DNA of 64,000 bases from Hyphomicrobiaceae bacterium. GTDB taxonomy: Bacteria > Pseudomonadota > Alphaproteobacteria > Rhizobiales > Hyphomicrobiaceae. This document shows, one piece after another, positions 26,775 through 43,821 of the stretch. Position 1 is the first letter of the stretch. Each line of letters starts with the position of its first letter. The translations under genes and the position numbers were made by a program. The stretch covers positions 124,001 to 188,000 of the forward strand of contig JAEUMD010000003.1 of the NCBI GenBank assembly GCA_016793635.1. Reading direction: 5' to 3'. The notes beneath the pieces are model-generated. The model made no database searches. It saw nothing but the letters and a program-made list of their open reading frames with translations, and was not told the origin of the DNA.

Positions 26775-28553
26775 ATGCTTCGCCGATTTGCCGCCCCCGT
26801 TACGCTCGCCGCGACGCTGACGCTTGGCGGGATGGCCGCCATTCCGGCGCGTGCGGTCGAGCCCGAGCCGCCAGCGCAATTGATCTCGGCTGAAGAGGCG
26901 CTCGGTATCGCCGTACGCCAGAAGCTCGACGTCACAGACCGCGATGCGCGAGCCGGCGACAAGGAGGATCGCGAGGCACTCTCCCAGTTCTATGTCTCGC
27001 GCAACAACGCGCCGATGTGGGTAGGCGCTACCGGCATCACGCCGCGTGGCAGGGCGTTGGCCGAGGAGATCGCGCGTGCCGCCGATTGGGGTCTCGACCC
27101 GAAGGAGTTCGCATTGCCGCCTCTCGACCTCGGCGCCGCGCCGGCGCGCGAATCGCTGGTCGACGCCGAGGCCAAGTTGTCGCTCGCGGCGCTGCGCTAC
27201 GCTCGGCATGCGCGCGGCGGGCGGATACCGAACCCGCGCGACATGAGTTCCTATCTCGACCGCGATCCCCAGATCGTCTCGCCGGTGAAGGTGCTCGAAA
27301 AGCTATCCGCCACTGACGATCCCGGCGGCTACCTGGCTGGCCTCAACCCGCAGCACGAGGCGTTCAAGCGACTGCGAGCGAAGCTGCTCGAGATCCGCGG
27401 AGCCGAAAAGCAGAAGGCGGCAGCGGCGGACGAGCCGGTGCGGATGCCGGAGGACGGGCCGACACTTTCGCCGGGCCAACGCCACCCGCACGTCGCGATT
27501 CTGCGCCAGCGCCTCAAGGTGCTCCCCAGCGAGGCAGATGCCGAACTCTATGACGATGCCCTGCTCACCGCGGTCAAGACGTTCCAGCGCGAAAACGGCA
27601 TGACCGCCGACGGCCTCGTCGGACGTCGCACGCGCGCCAGCTTCAACGGCGACGCCCCAGAGAAGCGCAAGGTCGATGACGGGCTGCTGATCGCCAACAT
27701 GGAAGCCTGGCGCTGGATGCCCGAGGACATGGGCGAAACCCACGTCTGGGTGAACCTGCCGGAATTCATGGTGCGCGTGGTGAAAAACGGCGCCGTGATC
27801 CACGAGGAGCGGATCATTTCGGGCAAGGTGGACAATCAAACCCCGGTCTTCTCTCACGAGATGGAGACGGTGGTGCTGCACCCCTTCTGGGGCGTGCCGG
27901 AGTCCATCAAGGTCAAGGAGCTGCTGCCGAGTCTCGCGCGCGGTTCGTCACTGTCCCGCCAGGGCCTGCGCCTGCAATACAACGGGCGTGACGTCGACCC
28001 GACCCAGATCGACTGGTCGCGCGCCGACATCCGCAACTATCACGTCTATCAGCCGCCGGGCGGCAGCAACGTGCTCGGCGTCGTCAAGTTCCTGTTCCCG
28101 AACAAGCACCAAGTCTACATGCACGACACGCCGACCAAGGACCTGTTCAATACCTCGACGCGCACTTACAGCCACGGCTGCATGCGGGTTCGCAACCCGG
28201 TGAAACTCGCCGAGGTGGTGCTGCAAGAGGACAAGGGCTGGGATGCGGCCAAGGTGGCGGACCTGCTGCGCAGCGGACCTGAGAACAACAACATCGCGCT
28301 CGAGAAAAAGATTCCTGTCCACGTGACCTACTTCACGGCCTGGGTCGACGACGCCGGTCAGCTCCAGAGCCGCCCGGACATGTACAGCCACGAAAAGCGC
28401 ATCCGCCTCGCGCTCGCCGGCAAGTGGAACCAGATCCCGCGCCACCGCGACCATCTGGCCCCTGTGCCCTACGTGCGGCCGCAGATCGTCCAGAACGAGT
28501 ACGGCTCTAATTCCATGCAGAACTTCTTCCAGAATCTGTTCGGCGGATTTTGA
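26775..28553 (+). CDS. L,D-transpeptidase, YcbB-type, 3' end replaced by island
   Basis: A 592-residue periplasmic murein L,D-transpeptidase that makes 3-3 peptidoglycan cross-links. A GAGGAG site precedes ATG 26775 and a signal peptide ends near ARAVEP. A scaffold domain is followed by a peptidoglycan-binding segment (ILRQRLKVLP to DGLVGRRTRASFN) and the YkuD catalytic domain with YSHGCMRVRNP; the catalytic cysteine is about residue 469. The C-terminus is MQNFFQNLFGGF. The last 39 bp are the left attachment site of the downstream island; the displaced original end at 43261-43299 would encode MQCLFQNLFGGF. Integration therefore swapped the last codons almost silently and kept the enzyme intact. 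Its usual DUF882 neighbour now lies 15 kb away. Confidence 0.93.
   Translation: MLRRFAAPVTLAATLTLGGMAAIPARAVEPEPPAQLISAEEALGIAVRQKLDVTDRDARAGDKEDREALSQFYVSRNNAPMWVGATGITPRGRALAEEIARAADWGLDPKEFALPPLDLGAAPARESLVDAEAKLSLAALRYARHARGGRIPNPRDMSSYLDRDPQIVSPVKVLEKLSATDDPGGYLAGLNPQHEAFKRLRAKLLEIRGAEKQKAAAADEPVRMPEDGPTLSPGQRHPHVAILRQRLKVLPSEADAELYDDALLTAVKTFQRENGMTADGLVGRRTRASFNGDAPEKRKVDDGLLIANMEAWRWMPEDMGETHVWVNLPEFMVRVVKNGAVIHEERIISGKVDNQTPVFSHEMETVVLHPFWGVPESIKVKELLPSLARGSSLSRQGLRLQYNGRDVDPTQIDWSRADIRNYHVYQPPGGSNVLGVVKFLFPNKHQVYMHDTPTKDLFNTSTRTYSHGCMRVRNPVKLAEVVLQEDKGWDAAKVADLLRSGPENNNIALEKKIPVHVTYFTAWVDDAGQLQSRPDMYSHEKRIRLALAGKWNQIPRHRDHLAPVPYVRPQIVQNEYGSNSMQNFFQNLFGGF
28515..28553 (+). repeat. 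attL (direct repeat with attR)
   Basis: These 39 bp, the last 12 codons plus stop of the L,D-transpeptidase gene, match 43261-43299 at 31 positions. The longest identical blocks are TCTTCCAGAA and CTGTTCGGCGG, one base apart, and later differences fall mainly on third codon positions. The crossover lies somewhere in this core. Confidence 0.8.
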
Positions 28554-29052: not shown

Positions 29053-29814
29053 TCAAGACTTTAGAAAGGGCTTGCCCCCGGATTGTAGCTTTGCGTTGGC
29101 GGCAGCGCGCTTTGCCTGCAACTTCGCAGGGCGCTCGTAGTAGTGATCCATCAATTCTTCCACCACATCGATACACCAGTCGGCCTCGCCAGCCTCGACT
29201 TCGATCAGTTGAAGCGTCGTAACATCGGTGATCGGGTGCGCTCCGAAGTTACCGAAGTGCCTGATCGCATCAACGGCATCATGGACGCTTGCGGGCAGGG
29301 ACTTCCTGTTGTCAGGCTCCCTCAGAACGGCATCGATTTGCTGGACCAAGTTCTTCTGTCTGTAGCCCTGTTCAGCCAGGATACCCTGCAGGCAGCGCCG
29401 CGACATGCAGGCCGAGGCTGCGGGGCTCAATTCGAGTACGGCGCAAGCCTCGTGGTAGGCCTTAACATGTCCTTCGGTGGTGTTTGGGAAAGACCTGGTG
29501 GCTCTCCCAACGGGATATAATCGACGATGCCAATCCGTTAGCGTGAAAGCACCTTGCTCGACGCCTCCCCTACGAACAAAAAGCGACTCGCTTCCACAGC
29601 CTGCGCAAACAACAACAGAAAGCTGGTAACGTGGATGCCGCTCTGGCGCTCTGCCCGTCAGCGCTGCTCCGGGGTCGCCGCTCATAGCCACAGCCGAATA
29701 CATCATATGTGGCTTGGCTCTTTGACCGCAGTGGGCGCAGATCAGGTACCCGTCATCCAGGAACTCGGCAAGCTGGTCTACGAGGACGTCGCCGGGGTAA
29801 GTAATTCGCGCCAT
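29053..29814 (-). CDS. DUF4145-domain protein with zinc ribbon
   Basis: A 253-residue protein starting at ATG 29814 (MARITYPGDVLVDQL). An N-terminal zinc ribbon is visible as ICAHCG and, after a spacer, VCAGCG. The C-terminal DUF4145 domain has the helical signature AYHEACAVLELSPAASACMSRRCLQGILAEQGY, LVQQIDAVL and DAIRHFGNFGAHP, close to the R..GN.aaH core. DUF4145 domains recur in restriction systems and other phage-defence operons. Here it is island cargo between the left attachment site and the resolvase. Any defence role is inference. Confidence 0.8.
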   Translation of the reverse strand: MARITYPGDVLVDQLAEFLDDGYLICAHCGQRAKPHMMYSAVAMSGDPGAALTGRAPERHPRYQLSVVVCAGCGSESLFVRRGGVEQGAFTLTDWHRRLYPVGRATRSFPNTTEGHVKAYHEACAVLELSPAASACMSRRCLQGILAEQGYRQKNLVQQIDAVLREPDNRKSLPASVHDAVDAIRHFGNFGAHPITDVTTLQLIEVEAGEADWCIDVVEELMDHYYERPAKLQAKRAAANAKLQSGGKPFLKS

Positions 29815-30933
29815 CGAGGGCCACTCCAATTGTGATTGGTGCCAGGTTAGCCGGCGCCGCAACCAGTTGATGCCTGACGCTAACTGAAGCAGCGTCGCTG
29901 CTTGATCCACAACCGAGCCGCCGCCGTGACGAACTCTCGCGCAATAACGTGATCGCCGTTCCAGCACCAGATTAGACGGCCATCCTTCCACACTTTTGGA
30001 AGCGGCTTACCTTTGTCATAATACCGGATGCGAGAGTGTACTCTCAGCAATTCCCACGGCTTCCGCCATCAGACCGGGCGGCGCAATTTTATGTGCGCGA
30101 AAGTGTTCTTTTGCTTCCGATATGGCCCCGTATGCTTTGAGTTGGGTCCCTGCCTTTAAATTCTGGCGGAACATCGCACAAGCGCGGCCCCCCTCTCGCG
30201 GCGGACTTTCTGGCGCTTCTAGACGGGCAATCCGATATTTCCAGCCGAATGTGCGATGTGCTCCGCGTTGCATTGGCAAGTCGCCCGAAAATATAGGTTA
30301 GCCTCGCATGTGATGTCGCCCGGCGAAGGCCGTACCGGGGGACGCCCTCCGGGTCCCCTCCGTAAATCGGTAACCATCTGGAGCGATTGCCCAACGCTCG
30401 CCAGGTCGTCAAACATCGCACCCAAGTTTCCATTCGCCCCCTCGAAACCCGTCAAAAATCCCATCGAAAACATCGCACCCAAAGCACGATACGCGAGAAA
30501 CGCGACTTCAAAAGCAAATCATTCGGAACTCACAGCGAAGCCGACGAGACGAGGCAACGCGAGCCGATCCACGACACGACGACGAGCACGACGACGTGCA
30601 TGCATTGCCATCGCCTGCCGTGCCCCATGCCCCACCCATAGGGGAGCACGGCCTTGCGTGTGGCGTCTAGCACCTGCGGCCGGGGAGGCCGCTGGTGCGA
30701 GGGTGCGCTGTAGCCTCACGCCTTAGCCTCGCGCGTCGTGTCTGGATCGACGATGTAGCAGACCAGTGCAGGACGGCAGCGCTGCCACGTGGCGAGGGGT
30801 AGGGCGGCCGTCCTGCCGGTGGGTGGGATATGCCCCGGCTATGATCGGAGGCTTTGGCCGCCGCGCTGAGAGGCCGGAACGACAAGGCCAGCCGGTTAGG
30901 GCTGGCCTCGTTTCCAGGGACAAGGTGGGGGGC
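29815..30933. other. Largely non-coding island DNA with ACATCGCAC motifs
   Basis: Four copies of the island motif ACATCGCAC lie here: 30171-30179, 30251-30259 (inverted), 30413-30421 and 30470-30478. One weak minus-strand candidate gene, 30016-30273 (85 codons, ATG start, EAKEHFRAHKIAPPGLMAEA near its end), has fairly protein-like composition but no recognised family or ribosome-binding site. The rest of the open frames are Arg/Ser/Pro-rich. Confidence 0.5.
30885..30908. terminator. Hairpin downstream of resolvase gene
   Basis: A 9-bp perfect stem, AGGCCAGCC (30885-30893) and GGCTGGCCT (30900-30908), lies 25 bp past the resolvase stop codon. There is no long T run, so it is a probable rather than certain terminator. 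Confidence 0.5.
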
Positions 30934-31488
30934 TTATTCTGCGCCGAGTGCCCGGTACACACTGGCGCGGGATAAGGCCAGCCGCTCGCCGATCTGAGTC
31001 GCTGAGAGGCCTTCCTCGCGAAGCTGCTGGCACCGGGCCGCCGTCTTGGCGTCAATCTTGGCCTTCCGGCCGAATTTCACGCCGCGCGACTGGGCCGCCT
31101 TGATGCCCTCAGCCTGACGTTCGGCACGAAGCCGCGTTTCGAACTTCGCGATGCCCGCCAGAACCGTGAGCATCAACTCGCCTTGCGCAGTGTCCGTGCT
31201 CAATTCTGGCTGTTCCGTGAAGATCAGCTTCACGCCGCGCGCTTTCAGGTCCGCCACGATCTTGAGCAGATCAAGCGTGGAGCGCGCCAGACGGTCGGCG
31301 CGCGTGACGTACAGCGTATCGCCCTGGCGGACGTACCGGAGGCACTCGGCTAGAACCGGCCGCGCGCCGTCCAGGCCGGACTGCTTCTCACAGAACAGCC
31401 GATCCAGGGCGAACTTGCCGAGCGCGATCTCCTGCGAGTGCAAGTTCTGTTCGTTGGTCGAGACGCGGGCATATCCGATGGCGGCCAT
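30934..31488 (-). CDS. Serine recombinase (resolvase/invertase family)
   Basis: A 184-residue small serine recombinase. The N-terminal catalytic domain begins IGYARVSTNEQNLHSQ with the nucleophile serine in RVST, followed by YVTRADRLARS with the conserved arginines and GELMLTVLAGIAKFE. The C-terminal helix-turn-helix is LREEGLSATQIGERLALSRASVYRAL. ATG 31488 follows AGAGAGAA. Length and layout match Tn3/Hin-type proteins, which resolve multimers or invert segments. In an element that also carries replication genes, a multimer-resolution role is likely. Its own candidate site lies upstream at 31521-31592. Confidence 0.92.
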   Translation of the reverse strand: MAAIGYARVSTNEQNLHSQEIALGKFALDRLFCEKQSGLDGARPVLAECLRYVRQGDTLYVTRADRLARSTLDLLKIVADLKARGVKLIFTEQPELSTDTAQGELMLTVLAGIAKFETRLRAERQAEGIKAAQSRGVKFGRKAKIDAKTAARCQQLREEGLSATQIGERLALSRASVYRALGAE

Positions 31489-31520
31489 TCGGGTTCTCTC
31501 TCTAAAAGTCTTAGACGTTC

Positions 31521-31592
31521 TGAGAACCACTATATGAGACGGCTTCTGAGACAACAATCCAAATGTCGCGTGAAGTAGACCATTTGAGACGG
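31521..31592. promoter_or_regulatory. Candidate res site / resolvase promoter
   Basis: Three copies of TGAGAC (31535-31540, 31547-31552, 31585-31590; two extended to TGAGACGG) lie in the 100 bp upstream of the resolvase gene, with TATATGAGAC resembling Tn3-family ends. Resolvases usually bind repeated sites in this position. Confidence 0.4.
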
Positions 31593-32651
31593 AGAAAGCG
31601 AATAAGGTAAACGAAACACGAAGGCGATTTAGGCCGGTTTTTTTTCGGGTTCGGGTTCGGCCGAAATGAGATCAAGCGGCGCTTCGATGTGGCGGTGCGA
31701 CGTGCCGTGCGATGTGGCCGGGGTGGTCCCGTGTTGCATATCGAAAGCGCCCTGGAAAGGGCCGTGCCAATCCGGGCATTATCGGCGGGAAAAAATTGTA
31801 CCGCGCGACCTAGCGGCTAATGGAAAAAATCGTGCCCAACAATGCTCAGCCATCGGCTGAACGGCGCGCCAAAACACGAGATCGGGCCGAACCGGTGAAA
31901 CTCCGCCACCGGAGGAAGATGGTTAACGCCGCCTCGCCGCGATGGTTAATGCTTAACCATGCCACCTGTTAACTATGCGATTTTGGAAAATCTTCACTGT
32001 TCAGTAACCAAGAGGGGTGGCCGTGTTCACGGTAATATTTCACGTCTGTAACAATTATCACGAAACGTGGTTGGGCTCCCGGCGCTGACATCGCACCTTG
32101 CGGACATCGCACCTTGAGGACCGACATCGCACGTTGCGTCTAGGCCTTCCACCCTTGGCGCGTGGCGTTGGGTGCCTTCCAGGGCGATGTTAGCACCGCC
32201 TCCGGGGCGTTGCTGGCGTCCTGGACGGCTTGCCGCGCCTCCGGGCTGCGCCGTCGCGTTCAGTCGCCGCTGCCGGGTTTTGTTACGATGTGAGGGTTTG
32301 TTACGATGTGTTACGATGCGGAAAGCCGCCACATCGTAACAACTTTTCCCAATGATTTCAGTTACTTATGAGATTTGTAACGATGTAACGATGTAAAATA
32401 GCTATATAGGGAAAAACGGGTTCACACACTTGTTGTGAGGATGTAGGGGACCCTCTCGGGAAAAACCCGCTCCGCGTCGTTACACCGTTACAAACGCCGT
32501 AAGCCGTTGAAAACGCGAAACAATGTGCCGCTTCGCCATCGTTACACCCGTCGTTACACCCCCGGCCACCGTTACAAACGCCACGAAAAAGGGCGCAACC
32601 GTTGGCCGCGCCCCGTCGTCTTCGTCGCTGGCCTTCGTCGGTCCGGCCGGT
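31593..32651. other. Iteron-rich non-coding region, putative replication origin
   Basis: About 1.06 kb without a credible gene, between the resolvase and the primase-helicase. It holds three repeat families. A GGTTAA group at 31921-31973 includes the palindrome GGTTAATGCTTAACC (31944-31958). ACATCGCAC occurs at 31707-31715 (inverted), 32088-32096, 32104-32112 and 32124-32132. Several AT-rich stretches surround 31980-32060 and 32340-32420. Multiple CGTTACA copies lie at 32477-32577. Repeats plus AT-rich DNA beside a primase-helicase gene are what a theta-type origin would show. Confidence 0.6.
32282..32396. repeat. Iteron cluster, TTACGATGT type
   Basis: Six copies in 115 bp: GTTACGATGTG at 32282 and 32300, GTTACGATGCG at 32310, the inverted CACATCGTAAC at 32330-32340, and two overlapping copies in GTAACGATGTAACGATGTAA at 32377-32396. 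The spacing is irregular but two are directly abutting. Confidence 0.8.
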
Positions 32652-35600
32652 TCACGCCGGTTCAGGCTTGCCAAACGCGGCGAGGCCTTTCGCATCGGCC
32701 GTTTCGCCTTCCTGCGAAGGCTTCCAACCGTCGCTGCCGAACTGGTTTCGCTGCCAGACGTACACCGACAGCTTGCCGTCTCCGCGCTTGTATCCGCGCG
32801 CGGGTTCTCCGGTGTCTTTGAACCGGATCAGCTTGCTCTCGAACCCGAGCGCCGCCATCGCCGCCGCCACGTCCGCCTTCATTTGAACGTGTCGCCGCTC
32901 CACCGGTATGCCCAGCGCCTCGTAAACGTCATGAGAGCGTACGCAACAGGCCTCCGGCAGTGCTGCCAGCTTCACTTGCAACGCGTCTTCGTACGCGTTG
33001 GGGTCCATCCGTTCCGCCTGCGCCGCCTGCGCCGCCTCCCGGTATTCCTTGGGAAGTTCGATCACGGCCGCGTCCGCGTAGTGTTCACGGTAGCGCGCGA
33101 CAGCCTCCGACCATAGTTGATCGCGGTCCCGGATCAGCGCGGCGAAGTCGGTTCCGCTACAGGCTACCGGCCAAAAGCGTCGGTTGCCCGTTTGGTCGCG
33201 CAAATACTTCGCGTCGTTCGTCGTGCCGCCATAGACGAACTGGCGTGGCACTTCCTCGACGAACCAGCCGTAAGCCGCGCGCGCCTTATCGACTTGCCGC
33301 GATATCTGCGCCTTGATTTTTTCGACCTCCGACTTGCGCCCGCCGACCATCTCCGGAACTTCCACGATCCACTTGCCCGAAGTGGCTTCGATCACAAGTT
33401 TAGGGTCCGCGCCGAGTGACGCGTTATCGGTGAACCAAGGCGGGCTTGCCAACACGCGAAGGAATGAACTTTTTCCGGTGTTCTGCTTGCCTTCGAGCAC
33501 AAGCATCGAGTCGAATTTGACGCCCGGCCGATAGATACGCGCAACCGCCGCCACCATCCACGTTGAACCGAACGCCGCGTTCAGCGGCACGTCTTCCGCC
33601 CCCGCGTACGTGGTCAGCATCGCATCGAGCCGCTTCACGCCGTCCCATGTTAGGCCGTCTAGGTATTCCTTGACCGGGTGGTATGCCGACAGGTGCGCAA
33701 CGTCGTTCAAGTAATGCCGCGCGTTATCCTTCGCGACGATCAGCCCGAACTTGCTCTCAATTGAGTGAACGATCCGGAGTAAGCACGCATCCGTCAGAAA
33801 CGGCTCGCGCGGAACGCCTGCGACTTCGACGCGATCCGTGAACAGGTTATGCCGCAGCCCGATGCCAAGCCGATGCAGCGCACGGCGGAAGTTTTCGAAC
33901 GTCTTCGCGATACCGCGCTCGCCTTCGTCAAACGGGCTCGCAAGGTCCATCTGCCCGAGTATCGCGGGATGCACGCTGCCTTCAGGCAACGTAGCTTTCG
34001 CAACACGTACACGCTGCGCCTCACGCACCGCCGCCGCCTTGACCTCCGCCGCCGCCTTGATCGTCTCGTCAATCGCACCGCGCCCGGCCGCGTTCGTCGC
34101 TCCGGCCGCCGCATAAAGCAGCGTCGTCAACTCGTGGCGCTCCAACGGATCGGCAACGCCCGCGACCATTGCCGCAACCGGCCGAACATCGGCCGCGCTC
34201 GGCTTCTTAGGCAGAGCATCGATAGCCGCGCGAACCTCGAACGCGCGCCATCCGAACGCAGCGCGGACCCCATCAGGATCAACACAGAATTCGATCAAGT
34301 CGAACGTCGTGAACGGTCGTCCCTTCGTCATGTCGTCTGCACTTGCGCCGATGACGAGGCCGTAAACCGAGCGCGCCACATGGTCCCATGAAGCCGAACC
34401 GCCGCCGCACTTGGCATGATTGCACGTGATAACCCCGTGCCGCAGTACCGGATCAGTCGAACGCGGGTCAGCGTCACGCGCAAACAACGTCAGTTTGCCC
34501 GGCGCATCTTCCTCGGTATGCGCGGTCTCGCTGGCGCTCATGTGGGGCTGGTTCAAGCAGTAGGCTTCAACCGTGCCGTCGTCTTTCTCGCGCGCGTCCG
34601 TCCCGTGCTTCGCTAGGAACTTGGCCCAACGAAAACCCTTCACGTCCGCAAGACGGCGGAACTCGTCGAACCTCGGCAAGTGCTGAGTGTCGGCAGGGAT
34701 GCGAACGCGCGTGAGGCCTTCGTGATCGTGTCCGCCGTGTCCCGTCGTGGCGCGTTGCGCCTCGACCTCCGGAGCATCCTTCAACACCTCGTCAAAATCG
34801 ACTGCCGCGCCGTCGAACCATTTGAAAAAGTAGTCACGCTTCGCCGCTGCGTTCGGCACACGCGGGAAGTAGATCGGCTGCGAAAGCTTATCAAGGCTCG
34901 CGTCGTCTTTGACCCCGTCGCCAAGCTGCATCCATAGCGCCCGGCGAACACGCTTCAACGCAACCGGATCGGCCGGAACGGCCTCCGCAAGGAACAGGAT
35001 GACGCGAGCGCGCGGAACCTCCGGCGTGCTCGAATAGGTGGTGTGAACGATGCCCGCAAAGCCGCTGCGCTCCACGGCCGAGCACAGCTTGTCCAGGTCC
35101 GCGCCGTCGTCCAGGTCGAACGCGATAAGTTCGATACTGCTCATGTTTTCATTGTTGCGCGGGCCGTCCGCCTTCAATGCGCCCGTGACGTACAGCGGCC
35201 CATCTTTTCCCCCGATCTCGACCTTGTCCGGCATGAACCGCGCCGCGAATTGCCCGAGTTGCGCCCGGCCGTTCCGCGCTACGTCTTTCGTGCTCGCCGC
35301 GATCCCGAGCGTAATCTCGCGCTCCAGTAACGCGTCGGCGGCCGGTTGCTCAGCCTCAACGGCCGGGCGTTCAAACGTCCCATCGTCGCGAACCGTGACG
35401 CTGCGAGTAGCCCGGCCGGAGCGCTCCGGCTTGTCCAGCATCGAGAACCGGCGAGCGCTCGCAGCTTCGTCCCCACCACCGGACCGGCGCACATGACCTG
35501 ACGTTGAGGCTGAGCGGCTTTCCCGGCCCGGCCCGCTACCAGCATGCCCAGCGCCACGAGGAACGCCGTGAACGACGCCAAAGCGCTTCGACCTACGACG

Positions 35601-35762
35601 GCGGCGCGTCGGGAATTCGATGACTTCCGCCTCGCCCTCATATTCGAGGGCGTCAACGGCGGCTTCGTCGGTCGTTTCGGCCGCGTCATCGTTAACCATG
35701 TCCATCATGGTTTCCGGATTACTAACATCGGCTATTGCATTCGAAGGGTTACGCGTGTACAT
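32652..35762 (-). CDS. VapE-type primase-helicase
   Basis: A 1036-residue protein combining a primase-like and a helicase domain. ATG 35762 follows AGGAAGAC. The region around residues 205-290 (IELIAFDLDDG, HTTYSSTPEVPRARVILFL) resembles the catalytic core of archaeo-eukaryotic-type primases. The C-terminal half is the virulence-associated E superfamily 3-like ATPase (PF05272-type): DGVKRLDAMLTTYAGAED, Walker A GKQNTGKSS at about 755-763, IVEVPEMVGGRKSEVEKIK and GNRRFWPVACSG. Such proteins initiate replication of satellites and prophages. It is transcribed towards the iteron region, with the small-gene operon diverging on its other side. Confidence 0.88.
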   Translation of the reverse strand: MYTRNPSNAIADVSNPETMMDMVNDDAAETTDEAAVDALEYEGEAEVIEFPTRRRRRSKRFGVVHGVPRGAGHAGSGPGRESRSASTSGHVRRSGGGDEAASARRFSMLDKPERSGRATRSVTVRDDGTFERPAVEAEQPAADALLEREITLGIAASTKDVARNGRAQLGQFAARFMPDKVEIGGKDGPLYVTGALKADGPRNNENMSSIELIAFDLDDGADLDKLCSAVERSGFAGIVHTTYSSTPEVPRARVILFLAEAVPADPVALKRVRRALWMQLGDGVKDDASLDKLSQPIYFPRVPNAAAKRDYFFKWFDGAAVDFDEVLKDAPEVEAQRATTGHGGHDHEGLTRVRIPADTQHLPRFDEFRRLADVKGFRWAKFLAKHGTDAREKDDGTVEAYCLNQPHMSASETAHTEEDAPGKLTLFARDADPRSTDPVLRHGVITCNHAKCGGGSASWDHVARSVYGLVIGASADDMTKGRPFTTFDLIEFCVDPDGVRAAFGWRAFEVRAAIDALPKKPSAADVRPVAAMVAGVADPLERHELTTLLYAAAGATNAAGRGAIDETIKAAAEVKAAAVREAQRVRVAKATLPEGSVHPAILGQMDLASPFDEGERGIAKTFENFRRALHRLGIGLRHNLFTDRVEVAGVPREPFLTDACLLRIVHSIESKFGLIVAKDNARHYLNDVAHLSAYHPVKEYLDGLTWDGVKRLDAMLTTYAGAEDVPLNAAFGSTWMVAAVARIYRPGVKFDSMLVLEGKQNTGKSSFLRVLASPPWFTDNASLGADPKLVIEATSGKWIVEVPEMVGGRKSEVEKIKAQISRQVDKARAAYGWFVEEVPRQFVYGGTTNDAKYLRDQTGNRRFWPVACSGTDFAALIRDRDQLWSEAVARYREHYADAAVIELPKEYREAAQAAQAERMDPNAYEDALQVKLAALPEACCVRSHDVYEALGIPVERRHVQMKADVAAAMAALGFESKLIRFKDTGEPARGYKRGDGKLSVYVWQRNQFGSDGWKPSQEGETADAKGLAAFGKPEPA

Positions 35763-36169
35763 TTAAGTCTTCCTGAGTTGTTTTCTGAACCCGTCGCGCT
35801 CACAACGCGGCGGGTTCTCTGTTTCCCGCAAGGCTCAGAAATTGGCCCGCGCGGAACGAACCATTCGCCCCATCGTCGGACCTAATCGAACTCTGCCGCC
35901 TACAAGGCCGCAGAGTCCGAAACGTGACCTTAACAGATTGTTACCGGCCGCACAATCCACATTTGGCACATTTTCTATAAGATTTTAAAACCGTCCGTTG
36001 TCGTCTCTGTGCTCGCCCATTTGCAGGCCGGTCCGGACTCTCCCCGCAGACTCAACGGCTTGCATTAACTTTATTTGTGTCGGCACGATTTATGCATTTG
36101 ACAAATTGCTCCGAGTCCTGTATACGGGTTAATGAGAATGGTTAACGAACCGGAAAGAGGCGTCCCGAA
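35763..36169. other. Divergent regulatory region of the island
   Basis: A 407-bp intergenic stretch between the primase-helicase gene and the small-gene operon. It is markedly more AT-rich than the rest of the window around 35930-36130. It contains the promoter at 36098-36126 and, overlapping the presumed start of transcription, GGTTAA-N7-GGTTAA (36128-36146), the same hexamer as in the origin-like region. Confidence 0.6.
36098..36126 (+). promoter_or_regulatory. Strong sigma-70-type promoter
   Basis: TTGACA (36098-36103), a 17-bp spacer and TATACG (36121-36126). It drives the ribbon-helix-helix-led operon. A GGTTAA direct repeat just downstream is a candidate operator. Confidence 0.75.
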
Positions 36170-36397
36170 GTGGTACAGAAGCGTATGGGCCGGAAGCGGC
36201 TTCCACCCGGCGAGAAGAAAACTCGGCAGGTGCTCTTTAACGTTCGGCCCGACGAGTTTGAGCACATGCAATCAGCAATGGGTTTGACCGGTCAGACCAT
36301 TTCCCATTTCGCCCGCGATGCCGTGGCGGCTCATGTCGCACACGTCTTCGCCAACGCCGCCACGAGCCCGACCGAAAACCCCAAGGAAAACGAGTAA
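36170..36397 (+). CDS. Ribbon-helix-helix regulator
   Basis: A 75-residue basic protein starting at GTG 36170 with AAAGAGG upstream (ATG 36185 is an alternative). After a basic arm (RMGRKRLPPGEKKTRQ) comes a ribbon-helix-helix fold: strand VLFNVRPDEF, helix EHMQSAMGLTG and helix TISHFARDAVAAHVAHV. MobC-like mobilisation proteins and phage or plasmid repressors look like this. As first gene of the operon, directly after a strong promoter with repeated GGTTAA, it is probably an autoregulator; a mobilisation role is the main alternative. Confidence 0.7.
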   Translation: MVQKRMGRKRLPPGEKKTRQVLFNVRPDEFEHMQSAMGLTGQTISHFARDAVAAHVAHVFANAATSPTENPKENE

Positions 36398-36909
36398 TGA
36401 GTAACCGCCTTTCGACAATCGACGACGCCCGCGAAATTTTCGACGACGCACAAGCCGTCTATCGCGAGGCCGTTCGCCGGATCATCCGCGACAAGTTCGC
36501 GGCCGTTGCCAGTGAGGCGCACTTTGACGACATCGTGGCCGCCCTGATCCTTGCCGCGCCTGCCGACGTGATTGCCTATTGGAGCGCCCTTAAGGCCGGT
36601 CCGGAGGAAGCGGAGAACGCAAGCCGACGCCTTCACCGCGCCGTCGAAGACCTCGCGCGGCGCGAACCGATGCTGTTCATCAGCGATATCAGTCTAAGCG
36701 CCGTTTTCAGCCTTCGCATGGTCGCAGACTATCGCGGCTCCGCGACTGACGATCAGAAGCGCTACTTGCGTCGCGAGCTAAAGGACGGCCACGACGTTGA
36801 GGGTAGGCGTCGAGAATTCGTGCGCCTGTCTCGCGTGCTCTCGAAAATGGACTTCGCCCGAGCGCTCAAAGCCGCGCCGGAGTACGCAGCCTTTTGCGCG
36901 CGAGGCTGA
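36397..36909 (+). CDS. Hypothetical island protein
   Basis: A 170-residue mostly helical protein whose ATG overlaps the previous stop codon (TAATG). It contains two related helical blocks (AREIFDDAQAVYREAVRRIIRDKFAA and SHFDDIVAALILAAPADVIAYW-type segment) with many Asp, Arg and Ala. A short segment pattern, DDIVAALILAAPADVIAYW, is echoed by NDIAAAILTPMRFAAIL in the next protein, so the two may be distantly related. No family recognised. Confidence 0.65.
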   Translation: MSNRLSTIDDAREIFDDAQAVYREAVRRIIRDKFAAVASEAHFDDIVAALILAAPADVIAYWSALKAGPEEAENASRRLHRAVEDLARREPMLFISDISLSAVFSLRMVADYRGSATDDQKRYLRRELKDGHDVEGRRREFVRLSRVLSKMDFARALKAAPEYAAFCARG

Positions 36910-36911
36910 AC

Positions 36912-37274
36912 ATGACGCGCGCCGATTATCTCGCCCGACTAACCGAGCGCTTCGACGCCTTCGCTGCGACGGTCCGGAAGCTGCTTTCGCAGCGCACGGG
37001 ACTGCAAGTCACCGTTGAGCACGCCAACGATATCGCCGCCGCGATCCTTACGCCCATGCGGTTCGCTGCGATCCTTGCGGACGCCATCGATGATGAAACC
37101 GTGTGGGGCATAGTTGACCGTGCGCGCGTCGATGACCCGGCGCTTTTCATTGTGCCCAGCGCCGCCCGGTTCAACACGCTGTTAACCCGGAAGGGAATGA
37201 CGCTGCCGGACGCGCGCGCCATGTTCGAACGCCTATCACCGGACGCACGAAGACGCGTTGCATATCACGCCTAA
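36912..37274 (+). CDS. Hypothetical island protein
   Basis: A 120-residue protein from ATG 36912, 2 bp after the previous stop. Helical and Ala/Arg-rich, with NDIAAAILTPMRFAAILADAIDDETVW in the middle, similar in pattern to the preceding protein. No motif that allows a function call. Confidence 0.6.
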   Translation: MTRADYLARLTERFDAFAATVRKLLSQRTGLQVTVEHANDIAAAILTPMRFAAILADAIDDETVWGIVDRARVDDPALFIVPSAARFNTLLTRKGMTLPDARAMFERLSPDARRRVAYHA

Positions 37275-37309
37275 CAGTCCCGCAACCCTGTAACCGAGTT
37301 GAGTACCCC

Positions 37310-37993
37310 ATGACCGCCACCGCCAAGATTGCCGCAGCCCGTGCCGCCCTCGCTACCAGTTTGAAGGCCTCGCGTCCGCTGCTCGAAGCCGATCAAATCG
37401 CCGCCGCCGTCGATATCCTGCTTGCCGATGACAGCATCGCGCATGCGGTCCAGAACGTCGATTGGTTGCAGACCCAGGAAGGCGCGGCCGACCTACTGCG
37501 ACGCCATGAAGGCAAGATCGCAAGCGTCGCGACCGAAGCACCGTCTCCCGTCAACGTCTATGAGCACTGGCTTTCTGAGCAAGCCGCTATCGGCGGCCCG
37601 GTGCCGCCCGACGTTCGCATCACCCTCTATCGGCGCGCTCACGGCCTCTCACGCGATGAACGAGCCGCGACGTGCATCAAGGCTGAGCCTGTGAAGGCTG
37701 AGCCCGCGAAGAAAGCGCCAGCGCCGCAGTCGGTCGTCAACGCGTTGCCCGGCCGCGTCGGAGCGCCGAACTACAGCCATCCGGACTGGGACCGTCTGAT
37801 TGAAAAGCGCACGGGCCGTCCGGCTGGTCAGCTTCTCGCCAGTCAACGCAAGAGCTACATCGACGCCCTGCTTGCCAGCGCCAGCGACGGTGTGCCGCTC
37901 GCGCCGGATGATGGCCGCCCGCTCACTGAGATCACAAGCGTAACGCAGCGAATGACGCTGGCGCGCCAGCGGGCAAGGCTCGCCGCACGATGA
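37310..37993 (+). CDS. Hypothetical island protein
   Basis: A 227-residue protein. The N-terminal third is helical, the centre has EHWLSEQAAIGGPVPPDVRI, a Lys/Ala/Pro linker (KAEPVKAEPAKKAPAPQ) follows, and the C-terminal part reads HPDWDRLIEKRTGRPAGQLLASQRKSY. This two-domain layout with a flexible linker is common in scaffold-like or phage accessory proteins. The stop overlaps the next start (ATGA). No family recognised. Confidence 0.65.
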   Translation: MTATAKIAAARAALATSLKASRPLLEADQIAAAVDILLADDSIAHAVQNVDWLQTQEGAADLLRRHEGKIASVATEAPSPVNVYEHWLSEQAAIGGPVPPDVRITLYRRAHGLSRDERAATCIKAEPVKAEPAKKAPAPQSVVNALPGRVGAPNYSHPDWDRLIEKRTGRPAGQLLASQRKSYIDALLASASDGVPLAPDDGRPLTEITSVTQRMTLARQRARLAAR

Positions 37994-38091
37994 ACCCGAG
38001 ACCTGCACCACCAACAACCGACACAGTGCCGCCCGACTTCAACGCAGACGACACGCTGCCGCGGCCTGCACAAACGAGTGACAAGAAATGA
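37990..38091 (+). CDS. Tiny coupled ORF (33 aa)
   Basis: A 33-codon frame that starts in an ATGA overlap with the upstream gene and ends in an ATGA overlap with the downstream gene. The peptide is Pro/Thr/Asp-rich (MNPRPAPPTTDTVPPDF). The double overlap is the main evidence for translation; it may serve only to couple its neighbours. Confidence 0.5.
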   Translation: MNPRPAPPTTDTVPPDFNADDTLPRPAQTSDKK

Positions 38092-38510
38092 AAGCTTCCC
38101 GAACCGCCCGCCTCGTCGATGCCGAGGCAACTGTTACGCTCCGCGACCTCGCAGACGGCGCAGAGACGGCCACGGCTACCGAGACCCCGGTTCGCCTGCC
38201 GCGCCTGTCTGGCGCGTATTGGCAAGCCGACGCCGGGCCGGACGGCGTGTTGAACATCAGCGTTGACGTCGCGGAGCTATCCGAGACCGGCACTTATGAA
38301 TTCCAGTTGATCGCGGATAGCTCACCGACCGTGAGTGACAGCCCGACGACTGTTCACAGCGTGCCGATCACGGCCACCGGTTCGTTCCGGTTCGACCTCG
38401 ATCTTGCGACCATCCGACAACTCGCCGGAGATGATGCCGCGTACCTCGCCGCACGCATCGTCATAGGTGGCGCTGATCCGAGCATCAACTACGCCGCTTG
38501 GATCGACTGA
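38088..38510 (+). CDS. Predicted beta-rich protein, possibly virion-like
   Basis: A 140-residue protein in ATGA overlap with the preceding tiny ORF. Composition and alternation suggest a beta-sandwich: ETPVRLPRLSGAYWQAD, GVLNISVDVAEL, GTYEFQLIADSS, VPITATGSFRFDLDLATI and DPSINYAAWID. Similar small beta proteins occur among phage structural or decoration proteins, so this is the only island gene hinting at a particle component. I cannot name a family. A hairpin follows at 38516. Confidence 0.6.
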   Translation: MKASRTARLVDAEATVTLRDLADGAETATATETPVRLPRLSGAYWQADAGPDGVLNISVDVAELSETGTYEFQLIADSSPTVSDSPTTVHSVPITATGSFRFDLDLATIRQLAGDDAAYLAARIVIGGADPSINYAAWID

Positions 38511-38515
38511 AACAG

Positions 38516-38546
38516 CCAATCGCTGCGCCGCTTTCGCAGTGATTGG
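38516..38546 (+). terminator. Hairpin after the small-gene operon segment
   Basis: A 12-bp stem with one G-T pair: CCAATCGCTGCG (38516-38527) with CGCAGTGATTGG (38535-38546). There is no U tract; it may be a partial terminator or a processing site. Confidence 0.4.
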
Positions 38547-38649
38547 TCATTGGATCAGAACTCGTCGCGACATAGACGGCGCGGCGATCACTCGCTCCGG
38601 TCGGGAGTTCCCCGGCTTCTGATCGGAGCGCCTTTCTTCACGAGGAACC

Positions 38650-38979
38650 ATGTCAGAAGCTTTGCTGCCCGCCGAAATTCGAAGCTCCGCCGCTGCTGCC
38701 GGTCTAGGCCGCCGCGTCTGGGAACAGCTTTACGTCGCCCTGACATTGATCCGCTACGGCGCGAGCCTCAACACCGTAAGGCTCGCCCTCGATGTCAATT
38801 GGCGTGAATTACACGCAAACCTGGCGGTCGCGGGTCGCTTGACGATCACTCCGGACAACGCGCCCCGGTCCAAGCGCCACGGCTCACGTTATGGCTTCCT
38901 GTACAGCCCGCGCGACGGCGTCGAATTCCCAACGCTCGGCATGGTGCAAGGCAAACTTTACAGCGGCCCGAAGTGGTGA
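38650..38979 (+). CDS. Hypothetical island protein
   Basis: A 109-residue protein from ATG 38650 with a GAGGAA site. The first part is helical (VWEQLYVALTLIRYGASLNTVRLALDV, resembling a helix-turn-helix) and the second basic and Tyr/Gly-rich (RSKRHGSRYGFLYSPRDGV). A DNA-binding role is possible. No family recognised. Confidence 0.65.
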   Translation: MSEALLPAEIRSSAAAAGLGRRVWEQLYVALTLIRYGASLNTVRLALDVNWRELHANLAVAGRLTITPDNAPRSKRHGSRYGFLYSPRDGVEFPTLGMVQGKLYSGPKW

Positions 38980-39032
38980 ATTGCTGACTGACGTGGTATA
39001 GAATAACGCTCACCCAACCGGAGCACCCCAAC

Positions 39033-39170
39033 ATGCGTATGAACACCGCCGCCGCGCGCGACATCCAGCTTTTGGCCGAAACCATCATTGCGGCCCGCAC
39101 CCTCAACACTCGGGACGGCCGGGCAATCCTGCGGCAGGCCAGGAAGGAACTGAAAGAGCTAGTCCAATGA
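39033..39170 (+). CDS. Small island ORF (45 aa)
   Basis: A 45-residue helical peptide (begins MRMNTAAARDIQLLAE, ends KELKELVQ). Its stop overlaps the next start in ATGA. A short gap with GGAG precedes the ATG. Too short for confident annotation apart from the coupling. Confidence 0.5.
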   Translation: MRMNTAAARDIQLLAETIIAARTLNTRDGRAILRQARKELKELVQ

Positions 39171-39325
39171 GCAGCGACGACGACAAGCCCGCCAACAAAG
39201 CCGACGAGAAGCCCATGACGCGGAGCGAAATCGCGCGGCAGGAAGCGCTCGCGAGCATGCACGAAACCGCGCGCCGGTCGCGCTGGACTGTGCGCAATGA
39301 GCGCCACAAGAGGAAGCCGAGCTAA
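39167..39325 (+). CDS. Small island ORF (52 aa)
   Basis: A 52-residue highly charged peptide (MSSDDDKPANKADEKPM, then RSEIARQEALASMHETARR). It starts in an ATGA overlap and ends in a TAATG overlap, so it sits in a run of three coupled frames. Confidence 0.5.
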   Translation: MSSDDDKPANKADEKPMTRSEIARQEALASMHETARRSRWTVRNERHKRKPS

Positions 39326-39636
39326 TGCGAGACACTGCCCACCGCGATCAAGCTATCAAGCGCATCGTCGATCAAGCGCTTGACGCAGGCAGCGCCGTTG
39401 AAGCGCTCCGCGTGATCGCCCGCGATTTCCATTCGATCTACACGGACCGCGCGTCCCCGCGTGTCATTATCAGCAACGTTGAGATTGTCTGCCGCCTCGC
39501 AGAATTTTTGCCCGAACCTACCGACGTCGTCGCGCCCGAAGCCGTCCGCTATGGCCCGTCACAAAGGCGCTTCGTCGATAAGCGCGCCCCGCGCATTTGT
39601 CAGGACGGCAGCCTATCGAAGGCGAAGCCGAGCTAA
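39325..39636 (+). CDS. Hypothetical island protein
   Basis: A 103-residue protein starting at the TAATG overlap at 39325. Helical N-terminal half (RDQAIKRIVDQALDAGSAVEALRVIARDF), basic C-terminus. No family recognised. Confidence 0.55.
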   Translation: MRDTAHRDQAIKRIVDQALDAGSAVEALRVIARDFHSIYTDRASPRVIISNVEIVCRLAEFLPEPTDVVAPEAVRYGPSQRRFVDKRAPRICQDGSLSKAKPS

Positions 39637-39640
39637 CCCT

Positions 39641-40069
39641 ATGTGCCATCCACCGCGCCAGTATCGCCGCCCGCACAAGACCCGTCGCTTCCGGGCGGGC
39701 ACGACGAACGGCAGGCATTTTGCCGCTAGTGAGCTTGAACAACTGATCTGCGACGCCAAGGAACGCACGGCTGCACGTGACGCGGAGGAAGCCGAACGGG
39801 CCGCAGCGAGAGCAAAGCGAGAGGCTGAGAAAGCTGCGGCCAAAGCGGCGAGAGATGCCGCACGCGCCGCAAGGTTCGCAAAACTCGCCAGTATGACCGA
39901 CGCTGAGCGCGAGGAAGCTCTCAAGGCAAAGCGAACGCTTTACAACAGGACCTATTACCGCCGCCGTGTGGCGGGAGAGATACCGGGGCGCGATCCAGAG
40001 GCAGACCGACTGCGGCACAATGAGAGAATGAAAATCTATATGAGAGAATACCGCACGCGGCAGAAGTGA
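39641..40069 (+). CDS. Coiled-coil basic protein
   Basis: A 142-residue protein from ATG 39641, 4 bp after the previous stop. A long Ala/Glu/Lys/Arg helix (residues about 32-85, for example EEAERAAARAKREAEKAA) is flanked by a basic N-terminus (RRPHKTRRFRAG) and a Tyr/Arg-rich tail (YNRTYYRRRVAG). It is probably a coiled-coil nucleic-acid-binding protein. It ends the small-gene string. Confidence 0.6.
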   Translation: MCHPPRQYRRPHKTRRFRAGTTNGRHFAASELEQLICDAKERTAARDAEEAERAAARAKREAEKAAAKAARDAARAARFAKLASMTDAEREEALKAKRTLYNRTYYRRRVAGEIPGRDPEADRLRHNERMKIYMREYRTRQK

Positions 40070-40368
40070 GCCGCGCCGGTCCGATCTCCAACAGTGCACG
40101 GCCCGCCTCCGTTCTCCCCGTCTCTCGTCGCCGTTGGTTCGTCTCGCTGATCGCCTAGCGTCTCGCTTGTGGTGGTGCGAGTGTGCAAGGTGCAAGGTGC
40201 GATGTTTTGCGGCCATCGGCCGCCAGGTTGAAGGGCCAAAGAGCGTCAATCTGAGTGACGTTGCGTCATTCAAAATGCCAATTAACGTCATTGCTTTCAA
40301 AGACTTGCATGCCTAACGGCGACGCGTCACACTGCCTCCACGTTCAACCAACACAGGAGGCCTTACCG
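40070..40368. other. Non-coding island DNA
   Basis: No gene seen. One inverted ACATCGCAC copy lies at 40197-40205, preceded by the tandem CAAGGTGCAAGGTGC. A short dyad TGACGTTGCGTCA is present at about 40256-40268. Confidence 0.5.
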
Positions 40369-40575
40369 ATGAACCCGATGACCGATGCCGAGTTCATCCA
40401 GAGCGATCTATTCCGCCACGAAGCCGACGCGTTGGCAGCCTGCGAGCGATTGACCAGCGCCGCGCAACGCGGCCTTGGGGCCGTTAACGACATGAGGGCG
40501 CGACTTGCCGAGGCGAGCGCGGCCGTGGATGCGTTGGAACGTCTCCGGCTGATCGATGTCGCGACATCGCACTGA
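40369..40575 (+). CDS. Small helical island protein (68 aa)
   Basis: A 68-residue protein from ATG 40369 with a perfect AGGAGG site at 40355-40360. It is helical with heptad-like spacing (AALAACERL, VNDMRARLAEASAAVDALERL). The last codons contain a copy of the island motif ACATCGCAC (40564-40572). No family recognised. Confidence 0.65.
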   Translation: MNPMTDAEFIQSDLFRHEADALAACERLTSAAQRGLGAVNDMRARLAEASAAVDALERLRLIDVATSH

Positions 40576-40872
40576 ACTTCTAGCGCCTCGACGCGCCTCT
40601 CGATGCCCAGCGCCTCCATGCCTCTCGCCGATCCAGTCTCGACACGAGCGCCTAGATCGGGGTGCGCGGTGGTGCGATGTTTCCGACTGATGGACTGCCA
40701 GCGGCACGGATCGGTGGGTATGGATCAAACGCCGGGATCACTGCGGTATTCACACGCCAATGTAGCCGAATCCGTTGTGAAGATGACGCGCAGCGCATAG
40801 GCTCCAACGTACGCTGATTGGCCATGGGTTCCCAAGCCCACGGGAATCTCGACCGAATACAGCAGGTGGCTC
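40576..40872. other. Non-coding island DNA
   Basis: No gene seen in 297 bp. An inverted ACATCGCAC copy lies at 40672-40680. Confidence 0.5.
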
Positions 40873-41923: not shown

Positions 41924-43150
41924 TCAGTCCAGGTCCGGCCGGATCAGCGGAAGCCACTTCGCCTTATCGGCATACGTGCAGGGCGTGCCGTAGCGGCTAT
42001 GAGCGTCACGGCCTCGTGCGTGGCCGACCATCGCCTTGTGGACGTACTCCGGAACTCCGGCACGGATCGCCGTGGCGATAAAGGTATGGCGAGCGCCGTG
42101 TGCTGTTGTCTTTAATCCGAGTCCCCTGAAAAACTTCGTGAACTTCTGCTGAGCATGGTTAGCGGGGTCTTTGCCGTACCAGACCGGGTCATCGTCTTTC
42201 TTCGTGCATTTATGGACGTATTCATAAAACCCCAGGCATTCGGGATGCAGCGGCATAGCTCTTGCGGAGTCGTGGTTCTTTATCTCACCGTCCATTGTGA
42301 ACCGATCTGGCAACACGTCGCGCCGCCACATGTCCGCCAGATCGGACGCACGCGCGCCGTGAAATATCATCATTCGGAGCATCCAGGCATTATTCGGCGA
42401 TAGTTGACCTAGGTTCGCTAGGATCAAGCGGACTTCTGCCGGGGAGAAGCCTTCCGGCTCCGGGACGGTGAACTCGTGTACGTTCTCCATAGCAACGCCA
42501 ACGCCAATCCACGGATTGCGCTCGACGAGGTTCCGGCTCAATGCGTGCTTCCACAAGGTCCGAAGTGAGCTAACGCCTTGTGCTGCTGTGACGCGCGTAT
42601 ATGGCTGGCGCTCAACGTATGCGATGAAGGCCGCAACGTGGCGTTGCTCAACCTTCGCCACATCATTGCACTTCGTCACGTTGACGAACCGATCTGCCCA
42701 CATGCGCATTCGGCGAATTGCGGCACGTCTCGGGTTCTTCCGCTCAATCCAGATTTCGACGATGTCCGCCAGCTTCCGCTTCGCTGCGGCCTTCGCCTCG
42801 CGTTCTTCTGCGAGTATTTTCCGAGCGACGGCAGGGTACGCGGGATGCCCCAGCGGGATAACGGTATTCGCCGGTATCGGGACGTTTGTCGGGATCATCG
42901 CGTAAGTGTTCAGCAGTGCGTCCCGAAGCGCGCTGATGGGATTAGGATCACCAGCACGAGCTTTCGCGACCGTTGCGGCGAAGTCGAGACCGGCCGCATG
43001 AGCGCGGACCTCAGCAGCGGCATTTGAGAGACGGCCAATATAGACGACGTGTTCATCTTTGCCGAGTGTTGCAGCTACGTCCTTCGGGTATCGGCGACGG
43101 TACAGATACCGGCCGTCGCGCTTCACGAGGCCGGGCATTTTCCTAGCCAT
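41924..43150 (-). CDS. Tyrosine-type site-specific integrase
   Basis: A 408-residue phage-type integrase. The N-terminal half holds an arm-binding domain (RDGRYLYRRRYPKDV) and a core-binding SAM-like domain (MWADRFVNVTKCNDVAKVEQRHVAAFI). The catalytic domain has the first arginine in FHGARASDL, HxxR in TAHGARHTF, and the nucleophile tyrosine in GHARGRDAHSRYG. ATG 43150 is chosen; GTG 43159 is in frame upstream and neither has a good ribosome-binding site. It lies 110 bp inside attR and reads into the island. The target, judged from the duplicated ends, is the 3' end of the L,D-transpeptidase gene rather than a tRNA. Confidence 0.93.
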   Translation of the reverse strand: MARKMPGLVKRDGRYLYRRRYPKDVAATLGKDEHVVYIGRLSNAAAEVRAHAAGLDFAATVAKARAGDPNPISALRDALLNTYAMIPTNVPIPANTVIPLGHPAYPAVARKILAEEREAKAAAKRKLADIVEIWIERKNPRRAAIRRMRMWADRFVNVTKCNDVAKVEQRHVAAFIAYVERQPYTRVTAAQGVSSLRTLWKHALSRNLVERNPWIGVGVAMENVHEFTVPEPEGFSPAEVRLILANLGQLSPNNAWMLRMMIFHGARASDLADMWRRDVLPDRFTMDGEIKNHDSARAMPLHPECLGFYEYVHKCTKKDDDPVWYGKDPANHAQQKFTKFFRGLGLKTTAHGARHTFIATAIRAGVPEYVHKAMVGHARGRDAHSRYGTPCTYADKAKWLPLIRPDLD

Positions 43151-43160
43151 ATTGAACACC

Positions 43161-43260: not shown

Positions 43261-43299
43261 ATGCAGTGTCTCTTCCAGAACCTGTTCGGCGGGTTCTAA
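43261..43299 (+). repeat. attR with displaced 3' end of L,D-transpeptidase gene
   Basis: A 12-codon in-frame remnant (encoding MQCLFQNLFGGF plus stop) that matches the end of the L,D-transpeptidase gene at 28515-28553. It marks the right boundary of the island and shows the pre-integration gene end. Confidence 0.8.
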
Positions 43300-43821
43300 G
43301 TCGCGATCGATACCGTCCCACCCTCTACGACAAGCCAACGGCCGACCCGCGATGCGGTGCGGCCGTTGGTGTTTCTGCAATCCGCTGCGCGCAGGGCCAT
43401 TCAGGGTGAAGAGCGCCGGCCCGCGCGCCAGTGTTCCGTCTCCGAGACTTGGTTCCCCGTGCAGCGTGCGATCGACCAAGTGTCGGAGACGGAACACGAG
43501 CGGCATAGCGAAGCAGGCAGCCACCCTGCCGGACCGCACTCCGCGCCCACCCCAATTCCGTCGCTATTGAATGGCTTAATCCGACGATGGTGGACGATGG
43601 TCTGCCCCGCGGCCGCAGCGCCGCGGGACGCGAGCAGAACCCGCCAGTGGCAGGGACACGCGGCGTTAAGGGTTGGGGATTAACCTTACGCTAGCCATTC
43701 GCTCCGAAGCCCATACCGCGGCGGTTGCGCCGCAGGCCGGTCGCAGGGACCGGGCCCGGATGCCGGGATTTCAGGTTCGGCTCTGGTGGGCGGGTGAGCA
43801 TTGTACGGGGACGTTTACGCG
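43300..43821. other. Intergenic with palindromic repeat copy
   Basis: Chromosomal DNA between attR and the DUF882 gene. It holds repeat copy B (43431-43497). GC-rich inverted sequence around 43605-43630 is present. No gene seen. Confidence 0.5.
43431..43497. repeat. Dispersed palindromic repeat (copy B, one hairpin)
   Basis: A 23-bp arm at 43431-43453 pairs with 43475-43497 with one mismatch. The inner part matches the first hairpin of copy A (GACTTGGTTCC, then GCGATCGACCAAGTGTCGGAG-like sequence). The second hairpin is absent. It lies outside the island, 130 bp past attR. Confidence 0.8.

Follow-up and report, generated by a model that had tools for sequence, protein, structure and literature searches.

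Why should a single integrated island carry eleven exact copies of a 9-bp sequence, ACATCGCAC (GTGCGATGT on the other strand), dispersed over about 10.5 kb? Exact search of the 64-kb window (the whole stretch of DNA analysed) located all 11 copies, each 9 bp long, where and in the orientation that an initial annotation had placed them: at 30171..30179 (+), 30251..30259 (-), 30413..30421 (+), 30470..30478 (+), 31707..31715 (-), as a triple at 32088, 32104 and 32124 (32088..32132, +, some 520-565 bp past the vapE stop), and at 40197..40205 (-), 40564..40572 (+) and 40672..40680 (-). The other 49 kb of the window contain no copy, again as annotated. None of 100 dinucleotide shuffles reached 11 copies (mean 0.86), and the enrichment, computed directly, is equally clear on the scale of the genome: the genome-wide rate predicts 0.11 copies for the 14.8-kb island (Poisson P 8.5e-19) and a third-order Markov model predicts 0.19, in line with the original estimate of about 0.1. 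The claim that the motif occurs only in the island holds for the window and fails for the genome, which has 40 copies in 3,819,478 bases, 29 of them outside the island. Since 39 relatives hold 2 to 56 copies per genome, these 29 are ordinary background, and a density similar to that of the island was not found across the 3.82 Mb; elsewhere the motif is densest on contig C9, where about 5 kb hold three copies, two of which fall in gene-like frames.

The island copies also differ from this background in placement, which was likewise computed directly. Outside the island 28 copies were examined, all except one that sits close to a contig end, and 25 of these 28 lie in gene-like frames, versus one of the 11 in the island. 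Codon-position GC classed ten island copies as non-coding and bore out the annotated exception at 40564, where the motif coincides with the final three codons of a 68-aa gene (40369-40575, gene start by our reading). Four intergenic regions of the island total 3,315 bases, and three of them contain all 11 copies by position; exact search found none in the fourth, between vapE and a ribbon-helix-helix gene. The observation is thus confirmed, and it is strong.

The island is bounded by direct repeats (83% identical) at 28515..28549 (+), which is the 3' end of an L,D-transpeptidase (YkuD) gene (26775-28553, Pfam YkuD), and at 43261..43295 (+), next to which lies a tyrosine integrase gene (41924..43159, -, Pfam Phage_integrase E 6e-7). 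Just beyond the right att repeat, window positions 43426-43502 hold a 28-nt inverted repeat, 89% complementary with its arms 21 nt apart. Further content comprises a DUF2806 protein, a run of small genes with weak family matches only, and a DUF4145 protein (29053-29991, -) that matches PD-T7-4 in PADLOC (E 1e-11) and may be an anti-phage gene; vapE and the resolvase gene are transcribed from the minus strand and the small genes from the plus strand. Among the proteins scanned, which covered part of the small ORFs, we found no match to a structural phage gene, capsid, terminase or AlpA. An element with an integrase and VapE and with no structural gene among the proteins scanned looks like a satellite, and ACATCGCAC might accordingly be a packaging or recognition signal for a helper phage or for an uptake or packaging machine. 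We regard this as distinctly improbable: eleven sites in both orientations do not look like one cos or pac site, a terminase match was missing among the proteins scanned, and the rest of the genome offers no group denser than the three copies on contig C9.

The ribbon-helix-helix protein and the resolvase, both candidate DNA-binding proteins of the island, had been put forward as binders, and ACATCGCAC could in principle comprise recombination half-sites of the one or targets of the other. The serine resolvase/invertase gene (30934..31488, -, Pfam Resolvase E 6e-38; the ORF is listed to 31557 and the start at 31488 is our reading) has a repeat of its own just upstream, four TGAGA at 31521..31589 (+) that may form a res site, with a fifth at 31667, and no inverted pairs of ACATCGCAC half-sites around a short core were seen. 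The small protein at 36170..36397 (+) matches NikA-like ribbon-helix-helix proteins weakly (Pfam E 0.01, 16.4 bits, below the cutoff of 27), and the divergent promoter region that its gene shares with vapE (35763..36169) lacks ACATCGCAC. Both proteins are therefore disfavoured, and we consider either role very improbable.

The third protein put forward as a binder is a VapE-type primase-helicase of 1036 aa (32652..35762, -, Pfam VapE-like E 2.5e-69, PHROG helicase/primase), which we presume to be the replication initiator. Its sequence retrieved a single PDB entry at E values up to 1, namely 7pds (E 1.3e-43). A model of residues 601-1036, built from an alignment of 25 sequences (mean pLDDT 87.5), gave as its first six fold matches PriRep1 with double-stranded DNA (7pds, TM 0.68-0.70), and at its C-terminus the model predicts a helix-helix-helix-hairpin region, at approximately residues 923-993, that we read as a winged helix. 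On this directly computed model, the C-terminal half of VapE folds like the SaPI-type PriRep1. The SaPI Rep helicase is described as recognising its origin through the C-terminal domain (PMC7581432). By inference, VapE would bind either repeat of the island, TGTWACG or ACATCGCAC.

A predicted origin lies directly 3' of vapE, a structure beside ACATCGCAC that the initial annotation did not mention. At 32281..32576, 82-371 bp past the vapE stop (32652), eleven TGTWACG iterons occur on the plus strand (32281, 32299, 32309, 32376 and 32384) and on the minus strand (32335, 32478, 32486, 32540, 32552 and 32570), and beyond these TGTWACG occurs only twice more in the island and twice in the window's remaining 49 kb. 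TGTWACG is often followed by ATG, and seven of the ten TGTWACGATG in the genome are at the predicted origin. Within it, 32340..32418 is AT-rich (68% versus an island mean of 39%); six iterons lie to the left and five to the right of its part 32391-32418 (71% AT), and two of the six left iterons fall inside the stretch if this is taken as 32340-32418. A terminator-like hairpin follows vapE at 32590..32614 (-), picked up by a pattern scan whose matches number 14 versus 14.4 in shuffles. The anatomy, computed directly, resembles that of PICI origins, in which an AT-rich region is described as lying between two sets of iterons (PMC6092414), and on this basis we predict the region to be a replication origin.

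ACATCGCAC both flanks the predicted origin and resembles it. Copies sit beside it on one side (30.17-32.13 kb), and the remaining ones lie past the small-gene block (40.20-40.68 kb), about 8 kb from the origin. The commonest 10-mer on the GTGCGATGT strand, GGTGCGATGT (six copies), agrees with the origin iteron GTTACGATGT at 8 of 10 bases. For consensus strings of our own choice, and with a likeness that comes mainly from CGATGT, the score of ACATCGCAC against the iteron of its own island was reached by 0.5% of shuffles, as against 17-99% for the iterons of 12 other VapE loci, such that among the 13 iteron sets compared ACATCGCAC resembles only that of its own island.

The bases around the copies bear on whether ACATCGCAC is instead non-coding repeat DNA, REP-like or locally duplicated, that has no protein partner. 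A purine precedes 9 of 11 copies and C follows 6 of 11, further flanks mostly vary, and the extended consensus proposed at the outset, RACATCGCACC, fits just 6 of 11. Some copies do have partly common flanks, as would be expected of repeat DNA: CTTG follows three copies and GTTG a fourth, and CAAACATCGCACCCAA at 30413 may be compared with AAAACATCGCACCCAA at 30470. One-mismatch copies are at background in the island as a whole (3 versus 3.6 expected), and all three fall within the 3,315 intergenic bases (0.8 expected there), that is, in the same regions as the exact copies; two-mismatch copies number 16 in these bases versus 10.8 expected, and from this excess of near matches a few degenerate sites may exist. 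In addition, GGTGCGAT-type repeats form hairpins in unrelated genomes, one of them L139, in which GGTGCGATACATCGCACC-type hairpin arrays (L139:5570-6450) surround a gene that we take to resemble a REP-associated transposase. On the other hand, the nine bases are invariant amid mostly unrelated flanks, and eleven exact versus three one-mismatch copies do not look like gradual decay, making repeat DNA an improbable explanation. The copies showed no helical phasing (spacings of 16, 20, 57, 80 and more), no match to known RNA families, no greater proximity to AT-rich DNA than other intergenic positions have and, except at 40564, no inverted pairing at short distance in their flanks. Adjoining the copy at 40197, window positions 40240-40310 are AT-rich and hold TGACGTTGCGTCA and similar half-sites, which may be another operator.

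We favour the reading that the initiator, or a partner of it, uses ACATCGCAC as a second and dispersed set of sites, at a probability of roughly 45%, because the motif flanks and resembles the predicted origin, is absent from the vapE/ribbon-helix-helix promoter region, and lies on an island whose resolvase has its own repeat. The role of the set we infer as follows. The island would be an integrated element with a replication module of the SaPI/PICI type, in which VapE would bind the TGTWACG iterons just 3' of its own gene, open the AT-rich stretch among them and unwind the DNA. ACATCGCAC would give this initiator, or a partner protein whose specificity is similar, a second group of sites in non-coding DNA beside the origin and some 8 kb away, and their likely job would be to hold extra initiator for copy-number control or origin pairing, or to act as accessory replication sites in the manner of the ori and crr repeats of phage P4. 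The proposal of the initial annotation, a binding site for an element-encoded replication protein, was accordingly right in kind if unspecific, and it remains the best fit given the PICI-type initiator gene and a predicted origin that ACATCGCAC flanks and resembles. Counting against initiator sites, 16 of 29 vapE 3' flanks have no strong repeat cluster and the dispersed set is missing elsewhere (see below). The PLE satellite also counts against them: of the two families of repeats described within its origin region, one alone is the iteron (PMC7145576).

A serious rival, albeit a somewhat unlikely one, is that an island-encoded transcription regulator binds ACATCGCAC as its operator to coordinate the DUF4145, resolvase, 68-aa and DUF2806 genes. 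Upstream of the DUF4145 gene there are four copies at approximately 180-490 bp, upstream of the resolvase gene (start as we read it) one at about 220 bp, and upstream of the DUF2806 gene two at about 190-300 bp; exact 9-mers in both orientations would fit a regulator, and the copy at 40564 overlaps a perfect 16-bp palindrome (40554-40569) that occurs once in the window. However, a master regulator would be expected to act between the divergent vapE and ribbon-helix-helix genes, whose promoter region has no ACATCGCAC; no short-distance inverted pairing was seen besides that at 40564, no gene starts within about 600 bp of the triple at 32088-32132, and a clear regulator gene was not found among the proteins scanned.

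Other VapE loci were examined for repeats of their own. The searches gave 29 separate VapE places in other genomes, of which we fetched 27 (25 from the family and two from the order), leaving out the weak G102 and G122. For the flank test L078 was dropped, having no usable gene end at a contig edge, which gave 26 loci plus two on viral contigs; the weak VapE matches L097-L099 were kept, and L096 was excluded from the 5' test as too close to a contig end. Word clusters were scored from -100 to +600 bases around gene ends, and the score reached the threshold of 15 in 13 of 29 vapE 3' flanks (12 of 28 without the window's own locus), compared to 0 of 28 vapE 5' flanks (0 of 27) and 8 of 299 other gene ends from the same sequences and three further own-genome sequences. 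By this directly computed frequency, it is common in this group of loci for vapE to be followed on its 3' side by repeats of its own, with no strong cluster scored in the other 16 of the 29 3' flanks. The repeats vary by locus (e.g. GCTAGGAAC, CTGGCTACA and AGTGCTACC); in the 12 loci for which they were listed singly, the words are of 7-10 bp and occur in both orientations in 11 (one orientation in L086), a short, two-orientation form that ACATCGCAC shares. A further VapE locus outside these counts (L262:1-7257) has six CGGTAGACA by word count, and a viral contig with a VapE gene has 27 CCGGAGACC at multiples of 18 bp (L009:1783-2475), which looks like a coding tandem repeat.

The dispersion of ACATCGCAC has no such general counterpart. 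The origin-type repeats of the other VapE loci lie mostly within 700 bp of vapE. When the vapE flank was masked, eight dispersed ACATCGCAC copies remained in the own island with a score of 22.3, versus at most 12.6 for dispersed words in the 26 other loci (two best words each), so that a dispersed second set is not general among VapE loci; local arrays scored similarly or higher in three loci (L083, 23.8; L074, 21.0; L085, 19.6). Near a contig end, the VapE locus L085 also has four exact CTCCCTTGAA in one orientation, 171-310 bp apart (L085:14628-15347). We consider it unlikely that ACATCGCAC reveals a so far unrecognised level at which replication or copy number of VapE islands is controlled, its exact sites deriving from the origin iterons yet being distinct from them and letting the initiator or a partner bridge the origin and distant regions of the element.

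No close relative of the island was present in the family, order, class, plasmid, phage and viral sets searched. A VapE pattern search gave 17 candidates in genome contigs, none confirmed, and two distant loci in viral contigs. The VapE protein matched in 24 of 103 family genomes, always partially except in the own genome, and no match in plasmids (116 records) or phages (929 records) covered 80% of it; besides its own genome, its N-terminal 600 aa had four weak partial matches in 397 order genomes and two in 385 class genomes. A 227-aa island protein had no match in viral contigs and, besides itself, two weak partial matches in the 385 class genomes, in regions that contain no ACATCGCAC, and megablast of the whole island against plasmids found none. 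Pairs of ACATCGCAC occur in one of the 103 family genomes, namely the own, and in 29 viral and at least 115 genome stretches, and among those listed none matched any of 15 island ORFs (tblastn, 1e-3); several of those inspected are coding repeats, palindromes or REP-like hairpins. The distant VapE loci carry repeats other than ACATCGCAC. In the titles and abstract openings of the open-licence PMC texts that the searches listed, we recognised no account of a dispersed second iteron set on a VapE island.

The analysis assigns a SaPI/PICI-like predicted origin to an orphan island. Private repeats often follow vapE in the family and order of the host (in 12 of the 28 other loci, a set that includes two viral contigs), and such repeats 3' of vapE offer a computable hint to the origins of integrated elements. 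Should the same initiator bind the dispersed set, the island would offer a simple system in which to study how distant iterons control copy number in satellites and islands.

Compared to known systems, the island shares with the PICI/SaPI replication module an initiator helicase of the VapE/PriRep1 kind with a predicted PriRep1-like fold (7pds), iterons directly 3' of the initiator gene (eleven TGTWACG, 82-371 bp past its stop) and two iteron sets around an AT-rich stretch, and with PICIs an integrase and att repeats. Gram-negative PICIs are described as one-directional in transcription (PMC6092414), whereas vapE and the small-gene block of the island are divergent. The island differs from the PICI/SaPI arrangement further in having two iterons inside the AT-rich stretch and a second, exact 9-bp repeat over about 10.5 kb. 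Iteron plasmids carry extra control iterons, initiator-binding sites away from the origin; the island's extra sites, by contrast, are dispersed over several intergenic regions of an integrated element. Like phage P4, the island has repeats at more than one distant place; in P4 a single repeat serves both ori and crr, whereas the near and distant repeats of the island differ at 2 of 10 bases. P4 alpha, like VapE a primase-helicase with a winged helix (in VapE a modelled one), is described as binding the P4 origin repeats with that domain (PMC4234260), and P4 as having a cognate ori site (PMC6092414). The predicted origin belongs to the known PICI/SaPI kind, and the dispersed exact set is an unusual variant.
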